This document shows positions 52,497-60,631 of a stretch of DNA of 64,000 bases, piece after piece. Source of the stretch: Paenibacillus yonginensis (lineage in GTDB: Bacteria; Bacillota; Bacilli; Paenibacillales; Paenibacillaceae); contig NZ_CP014167.1 of NCBI RefSeq assembly GCF_001685395.1, forward strand, positions 1,865,501-1,929,500, in the 5' to 3' direction. Within the stretch, counting starts at the first letter, position 1; each line of letters starts with the position of its first letter. The position numbers and the translations under genes were made by a program. The notes below the pieces were generated by a model. The model was not told the origin of the DNA, made no database searches, and saw only the letters and a list, made by a program, of their open reading frames with translations.

Positions 52497-52522
52497 TGGA
52501 TTGTCAACATTAAATCAGACAG
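52497..52522 (+). repeat. IS3 terminal inverted repeat, orfB side
   Basis: Starts TGGATTGTCAACATTAAA and aligns with the other end at about 18 of 26 positions, including the shared TGGAT tip, ACA-TTAA core and GACA. Confidence 0.85.
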
Positions 52523-53309
52523 CTTTTTTAAGGGCTACTTGACGGTACTGAACAGGCGTCATGTACCCCAATGATCCATGAATTCGATGCTTGTTAAACC
52601 AGTTAACATAGTCGTATAGTTCCAACTGCAGGTGATCGAGGCTCTGGAACTCCATCTGATGGATGAACTCCGTTTTCATGACCTTGTAGGTTGCTTCCGC
52701 TACAGCGTTGTCATAAGGACAACCCTTCGCGCTTAACGATCGACTGATCTCAAAGGTTTCCAGAAGCTCGTCCATCTTCTGGTTTTTAAACTCACTTCCA
52801 CGGTCCGTATGAAACCACTGGATTTGGCTCAGGTCACCTTCTACCGTAGCAAAGGCGCGCGAAACCAGAGCAGCGTCCTTATGTGGACCTGCACTATGGC
52901 CAATGATCTCTCGATTGAACAGGTCGATGAGGACGCAAATGTAGTGCCAACGGTGCCCTACCTTCACATACGTTAGATCGCTGACCACGAAGCGCTTAAT
53001 TTCAGCCTGGTCAAACTCACGAGCTAACACATTCGTCGTTGCCGCCTCATTACAGGCCGTTTTGTGGGGCTTAAACTGGGCAATGGTATAGGTGGAGACC
53101 AGGCCTTGCTCACGCATGATTCGGCCAATACGGCGTCTAGACACGATGAGTCCTTGTTCCTGGAGCTTGGTTTTGATCTTTCGTGTACCGTAGGCTTTTC
53201 GGTTCTTATAGAAGATTTCCACAATAGCCTTTGATAACCCATCTTCATTCGGTCGTTCTTTGGCTTCATAATAGTACGTACTTCTTGCAATTTGCAGGAC
53301 GTTACACAA
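52515..53309 (-). CDS. IS3-family transposase OrfB (DDE integrase)
   Basis: 264 residues from the first ATG; the frame is open further upstream (VAIIRNNLDKYSVSAL) and is normally reached by -1 frameshifting from orfA. An HTH_21-like segment (GTRKIKTKLQEQGLIVSRRRIGRIM) is followed by the integrase core with all three acids: D in SDLTYVKVG, D in WFHTDRGSEF and E in NAVAEATYKVMKTEF. It cuts and joins the element ends. It appears undamaged. Confidence 0.94.
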   Translation of the reverse strand: MCNVLQIARSTYYYEAKERPNEDGLSKAIVEIFYKNRKAYGTRKIKTKLQEQGLIVSRRRIGRIMREQGLVSTYTIAQFKPHKTACNEAATTNVLAREFDQAEIKRFVVSDLTYVKVGHRWHYICVLIDLFNREIIGHSAGPHKDAALVSRAFATVEGDLSQIQWFHTDRGSEFKNQKMDELLETFEISRSLSAKGCPYDNAVAEATYKVMKTEFIHQMEFQSLDHLQLELYDYVNWFNKHRIHGSLGYMTPVQYRQVALKKAV

Positions 53310-53350
53310 TGCTGATACCGAGTATTTATCCAGGTTATTCCGAATGATAG

Positions 53351-53632
53351 CTACTTTCGTCCCATGATCAGCGCCGCTTGCTTTAAAATATCTACCTCCA
53401 TCTTCAGACGTTGGTTCTCTTTTCGTAACGCCATCAGTTCGGTTTCTTCTGATGAACGATTATCCTTTTCCTTAAAGGAACCCGTTGTCTGAGCCTGAAT
53501 AATCCAACGGTCTAAAGCGGAAGCTGTGAGGTCGTATTCCTCCACAATCGCTGCCCTGGACTTCCCATTCTCATAAAGCTGTACCATTTGTCGCTTAAAT
53601 TCTGCAGTAAAGGTACGTCGTTGTTTTGGCAT
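53351..53632 (-). CDS. IS3-family transposase OrfA (helix-turn-helix, leucine zipper)
   Basis: 93 residues. MPKQRRTFTAEFKRQMVQLY and AAIVEEYDLTASALDRWI form the HTH_Tnp_1 domain that binds the inverted repeats. ETELMALRKENQRLKMEVDI is the coiled-coil multimerisation region. The heptamer used to enter orfB lies a few codons before its stop. Confidence 0.94.
   Translation of the reverse strand: MPKQRRTFTAEFKRQMVQLYENGKSRAAIVEEYDLTASALDRWIIQAQTTGSFKEKDNRSSEETELMALRKENQRLKMEVDILKQAALIMGRK
53381..53387 (-). other. Programmed -1 frameshift heptamer T_TTA_AAG
   Basis: In the orfA frame the codons read ATT TTA AAG, giving the X_XXY_YYZ heptamer T_TTA_AAG. A one-base slip back puts the ribosome in the orfB frame, open from here through the whole integrase, giving an OrfAB fusion. 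Confidence 0.75.
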
Positions 53633-53983: not shown

Positions 53984-54553
53984 TTAGGCTTCCAAGTTAA
54001 ACAGCTTCCCCAGCGATATCTGAAAATCTTTGAACACATTCGACCGCACGTTATCCTGCTCCGTGTATAAGTCGCGCACTTGATATACGCCATCCTGCAG
54101 AGCATACACATGAACCGTGCGATTGCCGGGGTCGACGATCCAATATTCTTGGACACCATTTTTCTGATACAGATTGAACTTCTCATTAAAGTCTTTCAGT
54201 GCCGTTGATGGCGACAACACCTCGATAATCATTGTCGGCGCGCCGTGACAGCCGTTTTTGGAGATTTGACTCTTGGAGCACACCACCGACAAATCCGGCT
54301 GTGTCACATGATCAGGCGTATCGTATTGATCGCTCTCGCTGAAGAACACGTCGAACGGAGCAACAAACACATAGCAGTTCCGGTTCCGCAAGAACGTTCG
54401 GAGCGCGAAATGCAGTTCACCTACAACAAACTGGTGAAGGGCTGTTGGAGCCGGGGACATGTTATATGCCTTGCCATTAATTAATTCCCATGTTCCATCC
54501 CATGTCAACCAATCTTGATACGTGTGATGCTTCTTCTCATCCGGATTCGACAT
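53984..54553 (-). CDS. Uma2 family (DUF820) endonuclease-like protein
   Basis: 189 residues of the PD-(D/E)XK nuclease superfamily. The order is TYQDWLTWDGTWELINGKAY, HQFVVGELHFALRTFL, VTQPDLSVVCSKSQI with the active-site Asp, then MIIEVLSPSTALKDFNEKFNLYQK with the E and K positions, and EYWIVDPGNRTVHVY. Biological role is not established; the family is abundant in cyanobacteria and multiplies in accessory DNA. GGAGG precedes the ATG. It sits between the IS cluster and two decayed genes. Confidence 0.92.
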   Translation of the reverse strand: MSNPDEKKHHTYQDWLTWDGTWELINGKAYNMSPAPTALHQFVVGELHFALRTFLRNRNCYVFVAPFDVFFSESDQYDTPDHVTQPDLSVVCSKSQISKNGCHGAPTMIIEVLSPSTALKDFNEKFNLYQKNGVQEYWIVDPGNRTVHVYALQDGVYQVRDLYTEQDNVRSNVFKDFQISLGKLFNLEA

Positions 54554-55672: not shown

Positions 55673-55863
55673 TGCTTGAATCCTCCAATTCATAAGATTT
55701 TTCGAAAGCGTTTACTTAGCATAATTACATTTATCTAGGGAGGCGTTATCAATTATTAATTAATACACTAAAATAGGGTAGACCCTTGACCGCAAGAGAT
55801 CAACACAAATAACCGAAAGATTTTGATTGATCGCTTCTTTATCAAATTCAATATTAAATTTGG

Positions 55864-55915
55864 ACAAAAAACTGCACTCAATTGTTAGATGATCTTCAAC
55901 AATCGGAGTACAGTT
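55864..55915 (-). terminator. Terminator of the CIRCE-controlled glycosyl operon
   Basis: Long hairpin: AACTGTACTC pairs with GAGTGCAGTT and, inside it, ATTGTT pairs with AACAAT. T6 follows on the minus strand. It lies 90 bases after the last gene of the operon. Confidence 0.88.
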
Positions 55916-56003
55916 CTGTTTGCTGCCTAGGTGTTTTTTCTGAAATCCACTAAAATGGATTCTGACCGTTTTCTCCCCAAGCAAGGATACCTCTCTCTAT
56001 TAT

Positions 56004-57071
56004 TCATCCTATCTGCTGCGGCTCCAATACTGGCCCTTCCAGCTTCTCGCAGATCGCTTCCGTTAACAAATAAGAGAGGACCGCTTCCGCCCCGCAGTTC
56101 ACGTTCGGGCCGTGCTCCTGAAGGCCGTCGTAGCAGCTGCCGTCCTGTTCGTTGACCATGGCTGCCCCCAGGTCGTTATCGCCGTAGAACCAGGCTCGGC
56201 ACTTGCGGGCCGTCTCTTTATAAGCCGGCTCCCCGGTCAGCTCGTACGCTTTGGCCGCCGCAAGCGCCAGCTTCATGACGTCGATCGGCTGCTGGTCCCA
56301 TACAGCGCGGAAGCCGGGACGGCACCAGCCGTTGCTGCCGACCACGCTGATTTGCCCGGTTTCATTCCGGGAAATGCCGATCAGGAAATCAAGGCTGTGT
56401 CTGGCAATGTCCAGCAGCTCAGTCTGCTCCAGCATTTCATAAGCCCAGAATAAGCCCCAAGGCAGCACACCGTTGCTGTAAGTCAGTTCAGGCTCGAACC
56501 AGGACCAGTTCGCGGCCGAATGTTTACGGTACAGAGCAGTTAAACGGCCGGAGAGCATGTCAGCCAGGCCCATCATCTTCTCATCTGCCAAGCCAGCGCG
56601 TTTGAGCAGACCAATGGCGGCAAGCGAATAAGCCCATCCGCGCGGATAACGTTGGTTCTTGGCCTGCTTCAGCGCCTTATGGAACATACTTTCAGCGGCT
56701 AGACCGATTGAAGGAGAAGGACGCCGGGCCATGGCCAGCGCGCAGGCCCACAGACAGCGTCCGAGGCAATCGTCCGAAGGCTGCTCGGGTTCCCGGCTGC
56801 GGTCATAAGCAAAGTTGTTATAGAACCGCCCATCCTCCTCCTGGGCCCAAAGCAGAAAGGCCAGATACTTCTCAGCCAGCGATAAAAGCTGCTTATCGGT
56901 CTGCTCCCCGCAGCGGCCAAGCCATTCCAGGCACACCCAGAAAGCACGGGCCTGATCGTCGGTGCTGTAGCCTTCCTTTCTGCGTGGCAAGGAGCCGAGG
57001 CTATGCTCCAGGATGCCGGTATCGTCCGTCATTTTGATCAAATGATCAAACCGAATGTTCGGCTGCTGCAT
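56004..57071 (-). CDS. Alpha/alpha-toroid (six-hairpin glycosidase-like) protein
   Basis: 355 residues. It starts NIRFDHLIKMTDDTGILEHS then RKEGYSTDDQARAFWVCLEWL, the pattern seen in domains that follow or accompany GT4 glycosyltransferases. The body has repeated helical hairpins (DDCLGRCLWACALAM, SNGVLPWGLFWAYEMLE, WDQQPIDVMKLALAAAKAYE). The fold suggests a glycosidase, phosphorylase or epimerase acting on the glycan made by its neighbours; no reaction is proven. It overlaps the glycosyltransferase by 26 bases and is the last gene of the CIRCE operon. No signal peptide, so cytosolic. Confidence 0.78.
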   Translation of the reverse strand: MQQPNIRFDHLIKMTDDTGILEHSLGSLPRRKEGYSTDDQARAFWVCLEWLGRCGEQTDKQLLSLAEKYLAFLLWAQEEDGRFYNNFAYDRSREPEQPSDDCLGRCLWACALAMARRPSPSIGLAAESMFHKALKQAKNQRYPRGWAYSLAAIGLLKRAGLADEKMMGLADMLSGRLTALYRKHSAANWSWFEPELTYSNGVLPWGLFWAYEMLEQTELLDIARHSLDFLIGISRNETGQISVVGSNGWCRPGFRAVWDQQPIDVMKLALAAAKAYELTGEPAYKETARKCRAWFYGDNDLGAAMVNEQDGSCYDGLQEHGPNVNCGAEAVLSYLLTEAICEKLEGPVLEPQQIG

Positions 57072-58206
57072 GTTTGCCCACCTCGGCGAATAAACGAAGA
57101 TATTCCTGACCGACGTTTGGCCAATGCATTTCCTGGCCCAGCCGCTTCATTTTCCGGACAACCTCCTGCATCTGTACCTCGTTGGTCATAAGCTGAACAA
57201 TCCGCTTCTCCCACTGCTTCTCGTCATCCGCCGGAATCAGCAGCTCCGGTTCCTCTGCCAGCAGATCCTGGGCGTAGCAATAAGGCGTAGACAGGACAGG
57301 CCGTCCAAGACCGACGGCATAAGCCAGCGTTCCACTTGTGATCTGTTCAAGGCCCGGATAAGGCGTGACATATACGTCACAGGCCGTAATATGACGCACC
57401 AAATCCTGCTCCTCCATGTACTGGTCGATCATGACCACGTTTTGCTCGATGCCGCTCTGTTTGATCATCGCCTTCAGCTCTTCGCGGTACTGCTCGCCCT
57501 CCCGTTTCTTAACCTCCGGATGGGTCTGCCCGACGATGGCATAAAGCACGTTGGGCACCTGCTTGACGATTTCCGGCAGGGCCTTCAGAATCAGCTCAAT
57601 CCCTTTGCCCCGGCCCAGCAGACCAAACGTCATCAGCACTTTGCGGTCTGCCCAGCCTAACTTTCTCCGGAAGGACTGTCTGCTTTCAAGCCCCTGCTCC
57701 GGCGTGCCGTGCGGAATGAAGACGATTTTATCTTCAGGAATGCCGAATGCCCGGTGCAAATAGCCAATCGCCTTGCGGTTCATCACGACTATCCGGGCAC
57801 TCCGCTCGGCGATTTCCCGTTGAATGGAGGCGTAGGGCTCACGCGGATGCTCAAACACCGTATGGAACGTAGTCACAAGCGGTTTGTTCAGGTGGCGGAT
57901 CAGGTTCAAAAGATAACGGCCCGCCTCCCCTCCAAAGATGCCGAATTCATGCTGCAAAGAGACCACTTCTACGTCCGAAGCGTTAATTTTATGTGCCATC
58001 TTCTCATAATCATATTCCGAATCCCGCCGCAGCACCCACAGCAGCGGGTCTCCAGGGCCGTCCGCCGGGCCGTCGTGCAGCACGATTACAGGATCCTTCG
58101 CCCGCCAATCCTTAGCCGCGTTGACGGCTTGCCGCAGATGAAAAGTGAAGGTGGCCAGTCCACATTTCTTGGGTACATAGGTACTGATATAAGCAATTGA
58201 AGTCAT
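57046..58206 (-). CDS. Glycosyltransferase family 4 protein
   Basis: 386 residues, GT-B fold. The N-terminus IAYISTYVPKKCGLATFTFH, a mid-protein LQHEFGIFGGEAGRYLLNLI and the C-terminal donor site (VTPYPGLEQITSGTLAYAVGLGRPVLSTPYCY) place it in the GT4 retaining group that uses nucleotide-activated sugars. The acceptor is unknown. Its ATG overlaps the upstream stop (ATGA) and its own end overlaps the next gene, so the three products are translationally coupled. Confidence 0.92.
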   Translation of the reverse strand: MTSIAYISTYVPKKCGLATFTFHLRQAVNAAKDWRAKDPVIVLHDGPADGPGDPLLWVLRRDSEYDYEKMAHKINASDVEVVSLQHEFGIFGGEAGRYLLNLIRHLNKPLVTTFHTVFEHPREPYASIQREIAERSARIVVMNRKAIGYLHRAFGIPEDKIVFIPHGTPEQGLESRQSFRRKLGWADRKVLMTFGLLGRGKGIELILKALPEIVKQVPNVLYAIVGQTHPEVKKREGEQYREELKAMIKQSGIEQNVVMIDQYMEEQDLVRHITACDVYVTPYPGLEQITSGTLAYAVGLGRPVLSTPYCYAQDLLAEEPELLIPADDEKQWEKRIVQLMTNEVQMQEVVRKMKRLGQEMHWPNVGQEYLRLFAEVGKHAAAEHSV

Positions 58207-59243
58207 GCCTGCATCACTCCTGTCCGATTCATTACGGCTTCATGCAAAATATGTCTGGAGCCCAGCTCCAGTCCGTAGCCGAAGATACAGTTGCTCAAAT
58301 GGGCGCCTTCATGCACCCGGCATTTATTCCATAAAATGCTGTCCGACAGACGGACATTGGGTCCGATCACGCATTGATCGCCCAAAACCACATTAGGTCC
58401 GATTACCGAGCGTGCGCCAATCCGGACGTGATCGCCGATCAGTACAGGCGGCACAAGCAGGACGCCGGGACCGATCTTGCAGCCCTTGCCCATCCGGATG
58501 CCGTCCCCGTCATCCTGTCCGGGGACCGGCAGCCGGCTCGCCCCTCTCAGCAGATCCCAATGGAGGCTGCGGTAGCGGTCCTTCGTTCCCATGTCCGCCC
58601 AGTAACCTTCGATCCGTTGGCCGTAAACGCCGGCGTCCCCTTCGATCAGGGCAGGGAAAGTTTCACGTTCAATGGAGACCTCCCGATGGGACGGAATAGC
58701 TGCCAGCACCTTTTTATCCATGACATAAATGCCGGCATTAATAAGTCTTGAAGGAGCTTCCTTCAGACGGGGTTTCTCCACAAAACGCAAGATCCGTCCA
58801 GTCTCGTCCAGCTCAACCACACCGAACTGCGTAGGGTCCTCTACCTCTTTAAGGGCGATGGTGACCTGGCCGCCATGGCGTTCATGCGCTTCCAGCAGCG
58901 GCTTCAGCTCCGTATCGTGGACAACGTCAGCATTAATGACCACAAACCGGTCATCGAGCAAAGGTTCAGCATTTTTGATCGCTCCAGCCGTGCCTAGCAG
59001 CTCGCGTTCGACCGCATATTGGATCGACACGCCCCACTTGCGCCCGTCGCCAAAGTAGGTTTTGATTTTTTCGGGATGGTGCTTCAGGGCGATAACGAAT
59101 CGCTGAACGCCTTGTTCCTTCAAATGAAGAATAAGATGCTCCAGCCAAGGACGGTTTATCACCAAAGCCATCGGCTTCGGCATATGTTCCGTCAAGGGTC
59201 TAAGCCGTGTTCCCAGTCCTCCTGCCAGCAACAGTACATTCAT
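58203..59243 (-). CDS. Sugar-1-phosphate nucleotidyltransferase with left-handed beta-helix
   Basis: 346 residues. The Rossmann-type nucleotidyltransferase domain starts LLLAGGLGTRLRPLTEHMPKPM, with VINADVVHD as the metal-binding site and VEKPRLKEAPSRLINAGIYV. A C-terminal hexapeptide-repeat helix (IRMGKGCKIGPGVLLVPPV, then RIGARSVIGPNVVLGDQCVI) follows. It resembles mannose-1-phosphate guanylyltransferases. It would make the activated sugar used by the GT4 enzyme encoded next. First gene of the operon, directly behind a CIRCE element; AGGAGGAG precedes the ATG. Confidence 0.93.
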   Translation of the reverse strand: MNVLLLAGGLGTRLRPLTEHMPKPMALVINRPWLEHLILHLKEQGVQRFVIALKHHPEKIKTYFGDGRKWGVSIQYAVERELLGTAGAIKNAEPLLDDRFVVINADVVHDTELKPLLEAHERHGGQVTIALKEVEDPTQFGVVELDETGRILRFVEKPRLKEAPSRLINAGIYVMDKKVLAAIPSHREVSIERETFPALIEGDAGVYGQRIEGYWADMGTKDRYRSLHWDLLRGASRLPVPGQDDGDGIRMGKGCKIGPGVLLVPPVLIGDHVRIGARSVIGPNVVLGDQCVIGPNVRLSDSILWNKCRVHEGAHLSNCIFGYGLELGSRHILHEAVMNRTGVMQA

Positions 59244-59289
59244 CTTCGAGATCTCCTCCTGTCCGAAAAAATAAAATCGAGAGTTTTTG

Positions 59290-59316
59290 TTAGCACTCTA
59301 TTTAGTAGAGTGCTGA
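59290..59316 (-). promoter_or_regulatory. CIRCE element (HrcA operator) upstream of the glycosyl operon
   Basis: TTAGCACTC, nine bases, GAGTGCTGA: the CIRCE inverted repeat with one substitution in the last three bases (consensus GAGTGCTAA). It lies in the untranslated leader, 47 bases before the ATG and just downstream of a candidate minus-strand promoter (TTGAAC, 18 bases, TAAAAT), the usual CIRCE position. Confidence 0.88.
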
Positions 59317-59577
59317 TAATATACAATTTTATGTAAAACTCCTTTTTTCGTTCAAGCGATTCTAAAGGAAAATAAAGGTTTTGGACTGCCAAAATTTTTG
59401 ACTAAAGCCATGTTTTCTTTTTAAATCTCAAATTCTCTTTATTTTCCTGGCGTTTATACAGGTAGGACAATCTCTACGCATATCTGACGTCAATTATTTT
59501 GCAGATCGAACCAAATCCTCAAAACTTGGCTGCTAGATCCGAAGAGGAAGGTATTCCAATACGATACCTGACCATGT
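59317..59577. other. Intergenic stretch without recognised gene
   Basis: About 260 AT-rich bases between the CIRCE promoter and the terminator of the secreted-protein gene. The promoter of the glycosyl operon occupies the first 40 bases. Short open stretches exist but have no ribosome site or family likeness. Confidence 0.6.
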
Positions 59578-59657: not shown

Positions 59658-60512
59658 TTACAGATTTATAGCAAATACCCCGACTTGTTCTCCGGACTGT
59701 CCCATCCACAACGCTCCGTTGCCGATACTAATCCCTTTCCAGTTGACCCCTACTTTATCGACTTTCTGGGCTAACAAGGCTTTCTTCACTTTGGCGGTCA
59801 TGATTTTGTCGTATTTGGCGATAAAATCTTTGGCGGTCTTGATTTCCATGGTTTTGCCATTGCTGTTCACTTTCAGCGGATACACCATCAGCTGGGCCGC
59901 TTCCGATTTTTTGCCTTCCTTAACGTATTTCTGGAGCAAGCTGAAGTTATGCTCGAATACGACTGGATTTTGTATACCGGCTGCTTCATATGGGTTATTA
60001 ATGACATTAACTGAAATAACCCCAAGCTTATGGCTCCGTTCACCAATCCATAAATCTCCTTCCCCTACCCGAACTCCTTGGTAGTTCACAAACAGCTGAT
60101 CGACCTGTTGAGCCAGCAGATTAGCGCGTACGGCAGAAGTGAAGATGCGGTCGTATTTGTTCACAAAATCTTTTTTGCTGTAAATCAAAAAGGTTTTATT
60201 ATTTTTGTTCAGATTCATCGGGTAAGAGATCAGCTCTGCCACTTGCTCAGGTTTATTATCCTTAACCGCTTTCTGCAATTTGGCAAAATAAGCCGTAAAT
60301 GCCGCCGGGTCTTTAATGCCGGCAACCTCATAAGGATTTATGCCGCCAGCTTTAGTTGCGGATTTCGTTACAGATTTCGTTGCGGTTGTCGTTATGGAGG
60401 CAGGTGCGGATGCTTTTGTGCCCTGCTCAGCCCAAGCCTGCCCGGAAAATGCGGCTAATGCGACTGCGATGCTCAACATCATTGCGGCTTTCTTTTTGGT
60501 GTTGTTTGTCAT
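59658..60512 (-). CDS. Secreted protein with two tandem homologous modules
   Basis: 284 residues. MTNNTKKKAAMMLSIAVALA ending AFSGQAWA is a signal peptide with an AxA cleavage site. After a Thr/Lys/Ala linker come two copies of a 110-residue module. Copy 1 starts NPYEVAGIKDPAAFTAYFAK and ends VGEGDLWIGERSHKLGVISV. Copy 2 starts NPYEAAGIQNPVVFEHNFSL and ends IGNGALWMGQSGEQVGVFAI. Shared landmarks are YPLKVN/YPMNLN, KDFxxKYDxI and LLAQxVD. The pattern resembles SnoaL/NTF2-like extracellular folds, but the family is not certain. The ATG at 60512 follows GGAGGG. Confidence 0.83.
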   Translation of the reverse strand: MTNNTKKKAAMMLSIAVALAAFSGQAWAEQGTKASAPASITTTATKSVTKSATKAGGINPYEVAGIKDPAAFTAYFAKLQKAVKDNKPEQVAELISYPMNLNKNNKTFLIYSKKDFVNKYDRIFTSAVRANLLAQQVDQLFVNYQGVRVGEGDLWIGERSHKLGVISVNVINNPYEAAGIQNPVVFEHNFSLLQKYVKEGKKSEAAQLMVYPLKVNSNGKTMEIKTAKDFIAKYDKIMTAKVKKALLAQKVDKVGVNWKGISIGNGALWMGQSGEQVGVFAINL

Positions 60513-60631
60513 TGTGGTTCCCTCCAATGGATTGGTTGCTTCGAGTATATAGCTAGGATGTATTCAACAAGTGTACACCGGAGAAGAAATTCATATTTTT
60601 TAAACACCACGGGAGCAGCCTCCAGATAAGA

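Follow-up and report, generated by a model that had tools for sequence, protein, structure and literature searches.

A CIRCE operator ahead of a conserved three-gene sugar operon in Paenibacillus yonginensis and its relatives suggests a heat-shock pathway under HrcA, possibly based on mannose

The window analysed here, a stretch of 64,000 nucleotides from Paenibacillus yonginensis, contains a three-gene sugar operon behind a CIRCE operator, and the same operator precedes the orthologous operons of many relatives. The operon is conserved and would add a metabolic output to the HrcA regulon, in which it has apparently gone undescribed; comparison among genomes argues strongly for the regulation and moderately for GDP-mannose. 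In the open-access literature on CIRCE and HrcA, judged by title and the start of the abstract, we found no account of this operon among the matches listed. Control of the operon by HrcA, considered alone, is very probable from the comparison of sequences. For the whole chain, in which a class I heat-shock operon would direct the HrcA-controlled supply of GDP-mannose and the synthesis and trimming of a mannoside or mannan in the cytosol, we estimate a probability of roughly 0.55. The elements of the operon, in the direction of transcription, are as follows.

59350..59355, minus strand: -35-like hexamer TTGAAC (sigma-A-like pair scan)
59326..59331, minus strand: -10-like hexamer TAAAAT, at 18-bp spacing from TTGAAC (sigma-A-like pair scan)
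59290..59316, minus strand: CIRCE operator, the predicted HrcA site, TCAGCACTC-N9-GAGTGCTAA (pattern match and conservation in orthologues)
59244..59289, minus strand: 46-nt 5' leader with the AGGAGG ribosome-binding site at 59255-59260 (sequence)
58203..59243, minus strand: sugar-1-phosphate nucleotidylyltransferase with a hexapeptide-repeat C-terminus, probably a mannose-1-phosphate guanylyltransferase (GDP-mannose pyrophosphorylase) (domains, NCBIfam, solved relatives, neighbours in relatives)
57046..58206, minus strand: GT4 glycosyltransferase, soluble and probably GDP-mannose dependent (Pfam, sequence relatives, hydropathy)
56004..57071, minus strand: (alpha/alpha)6-toroid protein, probable mannoside-acting glycosidase or epimerase (predicted structure, fold comparison)
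about 55864..55915, minus strand: intrinsic terminator of the operon (folding energy compared with shuffles)

The plus strand at 59290-59316 reads TTAGCACTC-TATTTAGTA-GAGTGCTGA. Compared with the consensus TTAGCACTC-N9-GAGTGCTAA, one of the 18 arm bases is mismatched and the spacer measures exactly nine bases, which bears out the single substitution and the exact spacer stated in the original prediction. It is the sole site in the window with three or fewer mismatches, and 100 shuffles produced none. The sigma-A-like pair TTGAAC-18-TAAAAT (59355-59326, minus strand), with its -10-like hexamer ending 9 bp ahead of CIRCE, agrees with the predicted position just downstream of a promoter, although such a pair taken alone is weak evidence (five pairs in the region against 4.7 expected from shuffles). 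The first start codon follows CIRCE after 46 bp. A divergent upstream gene as the owner of this CIRCE was ruled out, since the upstream ORF at 59658-60527 runs in the same direction. That ORF reads as a probable secreted protein with two similar halves and has no Pfam match.

In most descriptions, HrcA represses the principal chaperones of the cell. The P. yonginensis genome (4,985,901 bases in one contig, G000) contains four CIRCE sites at three or fewer mismatches, and a reversed control pattern finds none at this threshold across the whole 4.99 Mb. The targets are groES-groEL (L003, L158), hrcA-grpE-dnaK-dnaJ (L002, L157), htpG (L001, L041) and the three-gene sugar operon. The single HrcA gene of the genome (232 bits) belongs to the hrcA-grpE-dnaK-dnaJ row behind a perfect CIRCE; htpG, at L041:2475-4451, has a perfect CIRCE in front as well. 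According to excerpts of a published study, HrcA, which binds CIRCE, depends on the GroELS complex, and its targets are derepressed once non-native proteins make that complex unavailable (PMC3842655). The same excerpts describe HrcA and CtsR mutants of Lactobacillus plantarum with directly or indirectly altered capsule and envelope genes (PMC3842655), so that sugar genes linked to HrcA have a precedent.

Orthologues were sought with the first gene among 392 genomes of the order and 398 genomes of the class, and 74 genomes were kept, the window's own included. The order search gave matches at E <= 1e-60 in 96 of the 392 genomes, out of which we kept the 36 with a best E <= 3e-127 (own included), G255, with split genes, and G368, whose 363-aa frame is 41% identical and adjoined by the GT4 and toroid genes. 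The other 58 were dropped as presumed paralogues on account of 33-38% identity and frames of at least 801 aa (one of 488 aa), without inspection of their neighbours. The class search gave 37 of 398 genomes at E <= 1e-80, and all 36 besides the own genome were retained. The GT4 gene lies directly 3' of the nucleotidyltransferase gene in all 74 genomes, with gaps of -33 to 90 bp, and the toroid gene is present in 72 of the 74 loci and, on longer loci, in the remaining two. In G255 (L082:1890-4082), the nucleotidyltransferase and GT4 genes are each split over two reading frames.

CIRCE occurs at three or fewer mismatches within the 750 bp before the first gene in 51 of the 74 genomes, own included: it is perfect in 8, has at most one mismatch in 23 and at most two in 43. 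At this same threshold, four control patterns built alike had no match in the 750 bp of any of the 74 genomes. The 51 loci span 13 of the 16 families and 24 of the 31 genera. When each genus is represented by one sequence (24 in all), the arms carry 1.5 and 1.86 bits per base, compared with 0.3 for the spacer and 0.5 and 0.3 for the flanks; because the arms are conserved and the spacer and flanks are not, it appears to be the operator, not the region, that selection has kept. In 41 of the 51 loci a sigma-A-like pair has its end 0-13 nt ahead of CIRCE, compared with 77 of 1020 random control positions in the same regions, and the start codon follows CIRCE at 46-702 nt (median 167).

Some loci showed further peculiarities. 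The operator is asymmetric in loci of families f16, f41 and f49 (e.g., L114, L126, L130), with a left arm of TTAGCAGCC, TTAGCAGAC or TTATCAGCC and an intact right arm. Two CIRCE-like elements about 300 bp apart precede the operon in L060, L061 and L082. A single-sequence scan of contigs returned nine loci with only one true orthologue among them, L043 from Paenibacillus flagellatus, which lies outside the 74 and has two CIRCE-like sites.

No such site lies within the 750 bp in the other 23 genomes, namely 14 members of genus g17, five members of family f35, and G190, G400, G413 and G426, the last having a site with four mismatches. All 23 carry CIRCE elsewhere, at two to four sites each with three or fewer mismatches; the element is therefore in use in these genomes, and its tie to the operon can be lost. 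In G190 (L153:344-4101), a one-mismatch CIRCE lies 2.7 kb upstream and is followed, all in one direction, by groES, groEL, a 165-aa ORF without a Pfam match and the mannose operon. We infer that the mannose genes of G190 are co-transcribed with CIRCE-groES-groEL; a terminator-like hairpin lies between groES-groEL and the mannose operon. The other 22 of the 74 genomes have no CIRCE link of any kind at three or fewer mismatches, and they speak against a universal tie. The predicted placement of the operon under HrcA and CIRCE, followed through the orthologues, is supported in the 51 genomes with a nearby CIRCE and in one more by way of groES-groEL, and does not extend to these 22.

In two of the five f35 genomes (L120, L121), a CtsR-like box with 0 and 1 mismatch to what we take to be the CtsR consensus precedes the operon, 158 and 91 bp from the gene. 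No such box at two or fewer mismatches was found in the other 72 of the 74 genomes, the window's included, and at 2 of 74 the CtsR box was rejected as a general partner. Of the 14 loci of genus g17 (L069-L081, L085), all lacking CIRCE at the operon, 11 have a terminator-like hairpin 77-106 nt upstream of the gene, and 7 of these 11 hairpins are lower in energy than all 20 shuffles.

Many relatives, though not the window, have a longer leader between CIRCE and the gene, which is similar across families and contains a long hairpin ending in a U-run (e.g., L107:1375-1464, L109:1364-1449, L060:2647-2735 and L065:2556-2651). The hairpin energy is below that of all 20 shuffles in 30 of the 72 upstream regions tested (two were too short), where the region taken for genomes without CIRCE was the last 300 nt before the gene and not a mapped leader. 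Of 75 sources searched with a covariance model, 13 have the sense-strand hairpin at E <= 0.05, eight of them being the model's own training set, and the window has no match; RNAalifold gave five pairs for 16 leader sequences. In a hand-made structure of eight sequences, two pairs changed on both sides, a number reached in 398 of 500 column shuffles and thus no support for covariation. Rfam gave no family at the gathering score for 20 loci; at E <= 5, six loci yielded four matches, all far under that score. The hairpin, supported by folding energy and sequence conservation, could be a transcription attenuator adding a second control. As several leaders are long, we also considered that they might encode a small conserved protein, and rejected this because the similarity extends over more than one frame; we therefore read it as a conserved RNA instead of a gene. 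A second form of the leader, in L059, L061-L064 and L101, shares the core CGCGTATTACG...TTTGGCC..GGCGTGA.. and has a branched fold before the same U-run.

As for the encoded proteins, the three ORFs on the minus strand overlap by 4 and 26 bp, and domains and fold assign them to the nucleotidyltransferase, GT4 and alpha/alpha-toroid families, as originally predicted. The nucleotidyltransferase contains NTP_transferase (PF00483, E 1.9e-51) and hexapeptide (PF00132, E 5.9e-17) domains. Its best-scoring NCBIfam model is NF052502 (mannose-1-phosphate guanylyltransferase), but the score of 272.9 against 440 bits is below the cut-off, and among solved structures a UTP-glucose enzyme scores almost as high. 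The GT4 protein exceeds the cut-offs for PF00534, PF13692 and PF13439 (Glycos_transf_1 and Glyco_transf_4 domains), and its sole solved sequence relative is a GDP-mannose-dependent phosphatidylinositol mannoside transferase (E 6e-4). The homology search with GT4, in which scoring was limited to the 8000 candidates sharing most words, listed 120 homologues, among which two are named PslF (polysaccharide biosynthesis protein) and several "cell wall biosynthesis".

The toroid protein has no Pfam family above cut-off, and its structure was predicted with a mean pLDDT of 90. The fold is near those of GH76 mannanases, cellobiose and mannose epimerases, and the methylmannose polysaccharide hydrolase MmpH; the top match is 7tem, a putative exported protein for which no function is stated. 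Pfam GH76 scores 13.2 against 25.9 bits, below cut-off, and 5 of the 32 alignment members match it at E <= 1 (best E 0.0018). GlcNAc_2-epim, the domain of AGE-type 2-epimerases, is absent for the window protein and matches one of the 32 members (E 0.014) despite the close fold. The protein could be a glycosidase or an epimerase. Hydropathy indicated no membrane-type hydrophobic stretch in any of the three operon proteins, and a Pfam scan of six window proteins in and around the operon found no export or membrane-glycan protein (flippase, polymerase or oligosaccharyltransferase), leaving the envelope part of the original prediction unsupported. The operon end predicted at 55864-55915 agrees with the folding of 55855-55925 at -23.3 kcal/mol with a U run (z -5.2; 0 of 200 shuffles as low); this terminator was not among the calls of a simple terminator scan. 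Downstream of the operon, the stretches 52515-53632 and 53984-54553 hold two ORFs that resemble an IS3-type transposase pair, as well as a Uma2-family protein (PF05685).

The neighbours of the operon in relatives point to mannose. Among 47 extended loci, from 46 of the 74 genomes plus L043, ManB (phosphomannomutase type) lies downstream on the same strand in at least 13, ManA (mannose-6-phosphate isomerase) in at least 10, and GH130 in at least four, with just 31% likeness in one case. These are minimum counts, since the loci span 6.5-17 kb and some of them stop within these genes. There was no ManB match in 34 of the 47 extended loci and no downstream GH130 match in 43, and GH130, at four of 47, was rejected as a core part of the operon. 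The window's genome has one ManA and two PGM/PMM genes away from the operon, as well as two GH130 genes far off, beside genes that read as sugar-uptake genes. Because some relatives add ManA, ManB or GH130, the activated sugar, and hence the donor, is most likely GDP-mannose. The nucleotidyltransferase probably uses GTP and mannose-1-phosphate, as family and neighbour context suggest. We would give even odds to a mannose-based product located in the cytosol.

The proposed mechanism combines these elements. At rest, HrcA kept active by free GroESL would occupy CIRCE at the transcription start and block the promoter. Heat or another protein-damaging stress would tie up GroESL, upon which HrcA would be released and the operon made together with groESL, dnaK and htpG; since CIRCE sits where transcription starts, the operon would be expected to rise alongside groESL. 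The nucleotidyltransferase would then make GDP-mannose, GT4 would move mannose onto a cytosolic acceptor to form a mannoside or a short mannan, and the (alpha/alpha)6 protein would trim or recycle the chain. The product may protect the cytoplasm or store mannose during stress. The sequences show the operator with its conservation and the families and order of the genes; we infer the donor, the cytosolic location and the mannoside product from protein families and genomic context.

Several other readings have to be weighed against this chain. A repeat that arose by chance, or has decayed, and does nothing at the operon is very improbable: the one mismatch, the 22 of 74 genomes without a CIRCE link and a heat response that is a prediction only favour this reading, but it has to face CIRCE in 51 of the 74 genomes where the controls gave 0 of 74, arms conserved where spacer and flanks are not, and one genome linked to CIRCE-groES-groEL by another arrangement. 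A more serious alternative, which we consider possible albeit unlikely, keeps the control by HrcA and directs the sugar onto proteins, lipids or the envelope, in the form of a secondary wall polymer or of stress-induced glycosylation. Lipid-linked and surface glycans are frequent substrates of GT4 enzymes, and both the phosphatidylinositol mannoside transferase as the sole solved relative and the PslF and cell-wall names among the 120 listed homologues fit such a role. However, the six scanned window proteins include no flippase, polymerase or oligosaccharyltransferase, the three operon proteins are without membrane-type stretches, and the identified neighbours in relatives are enzymes of precursor supply and degradation.

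Instead of a polymer, the operon might also turn over a small compatible solute akin to mannosylglycerate or mannosylglucosylglycerate. Supply of GDP-mannose, a soluble glycosyltransferase and GH130 in a few relatives would fit a small mannoside, and stress control would suit a protective solute; yet the (alpha/alpha)6 protein is as close to the polymer-acting GH76 and MmpH as to other toroids, and we regard the solute as improbable. The cytosolic mannoside or mannan made under HrcA control is the reading that we prefer.

CIRCE retained before the operon in many relatives suggests that sugar making is part of a chaperone-type stress response, and with a sugar pathway under the HrcA switch in members of 13 families of the class, the heat-shock response would be partly metabolic there. 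More tentatively, many Bacilli may make a cytosolic heat-shock mannan or mannoside through an old HrcA/CIRCE operon, as a chemical chaperone or reserve beside GroEL, DnaK and HtpG, a bacterial counterpart of mannogen under chaperone feedback. If this were true, the placement behind groES-groEL in one genome and the CtsR-like boxes in two would mean that selection keeps the tie to folding stress, whichever repressor provides it. The uncharacterised enzyme set gains a clear condition under which to search for its product, and the operon makes it possible to examine directly whether protein misfolding leads bacteria to produce a protective mannan.

Compared with the class I HrcA/CIRCE regulon, the operon has the same operator sequence, spacer, place relative to the promoter and single hrcA, shared with the chaperone operons. 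Whereas the usual members encode chaperones, the window operon encodes sugar enzymes, and at the sugar operon several families have a changed left arm (TTAGCAGCC or TTATCAGCC) next to an intact right arm. Class III control by CtsR is resembled in two f35 genomes lacking CIRCE there, where CtsR-like heptad pairs precede the operon, but such pairs at two or fewer mismatches are absent from the other 72 genomes. On the side of the product, the mycobacterial four-gene cluster for methylmannose polysaccharide (MMP) holds a mannosyltransferase (ManT) and a mannan hydrolase (MmpH), and the polymer is linked to low temperature, according to excerpts of its description (PMC9883506). Unlike that cluster, the operon and its surroundings gave no methyltransferase in the scan of six window proteins. 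The toroid profile also does not find MmpH by sequence, and many other toroids fit the fold as well or better.

Leishmania mannogen, which is linked to survival at raised temperature, offers the second comparison. In excerpts of the published accounts, it is a soluble intracellular beta-1,2-mannan reserve made from GDP-mannose and subject to turnover, whose GT108 enzymes have both fold and mechanism in common with bacterial GH130 (PMC3290622, PMC8950772). As far as these excerpts go, the likeness would lie in a GDP-mannose-dependent intracellular mannan with turnover and in GH130 in the operon of a few relatives; as a difference, 43 of the 47 extended loci are without a downstream GH130. By analogy, MMP and mannogen appear to be the closest working models, which the operon at most resembles, and we claim membership in neither system.
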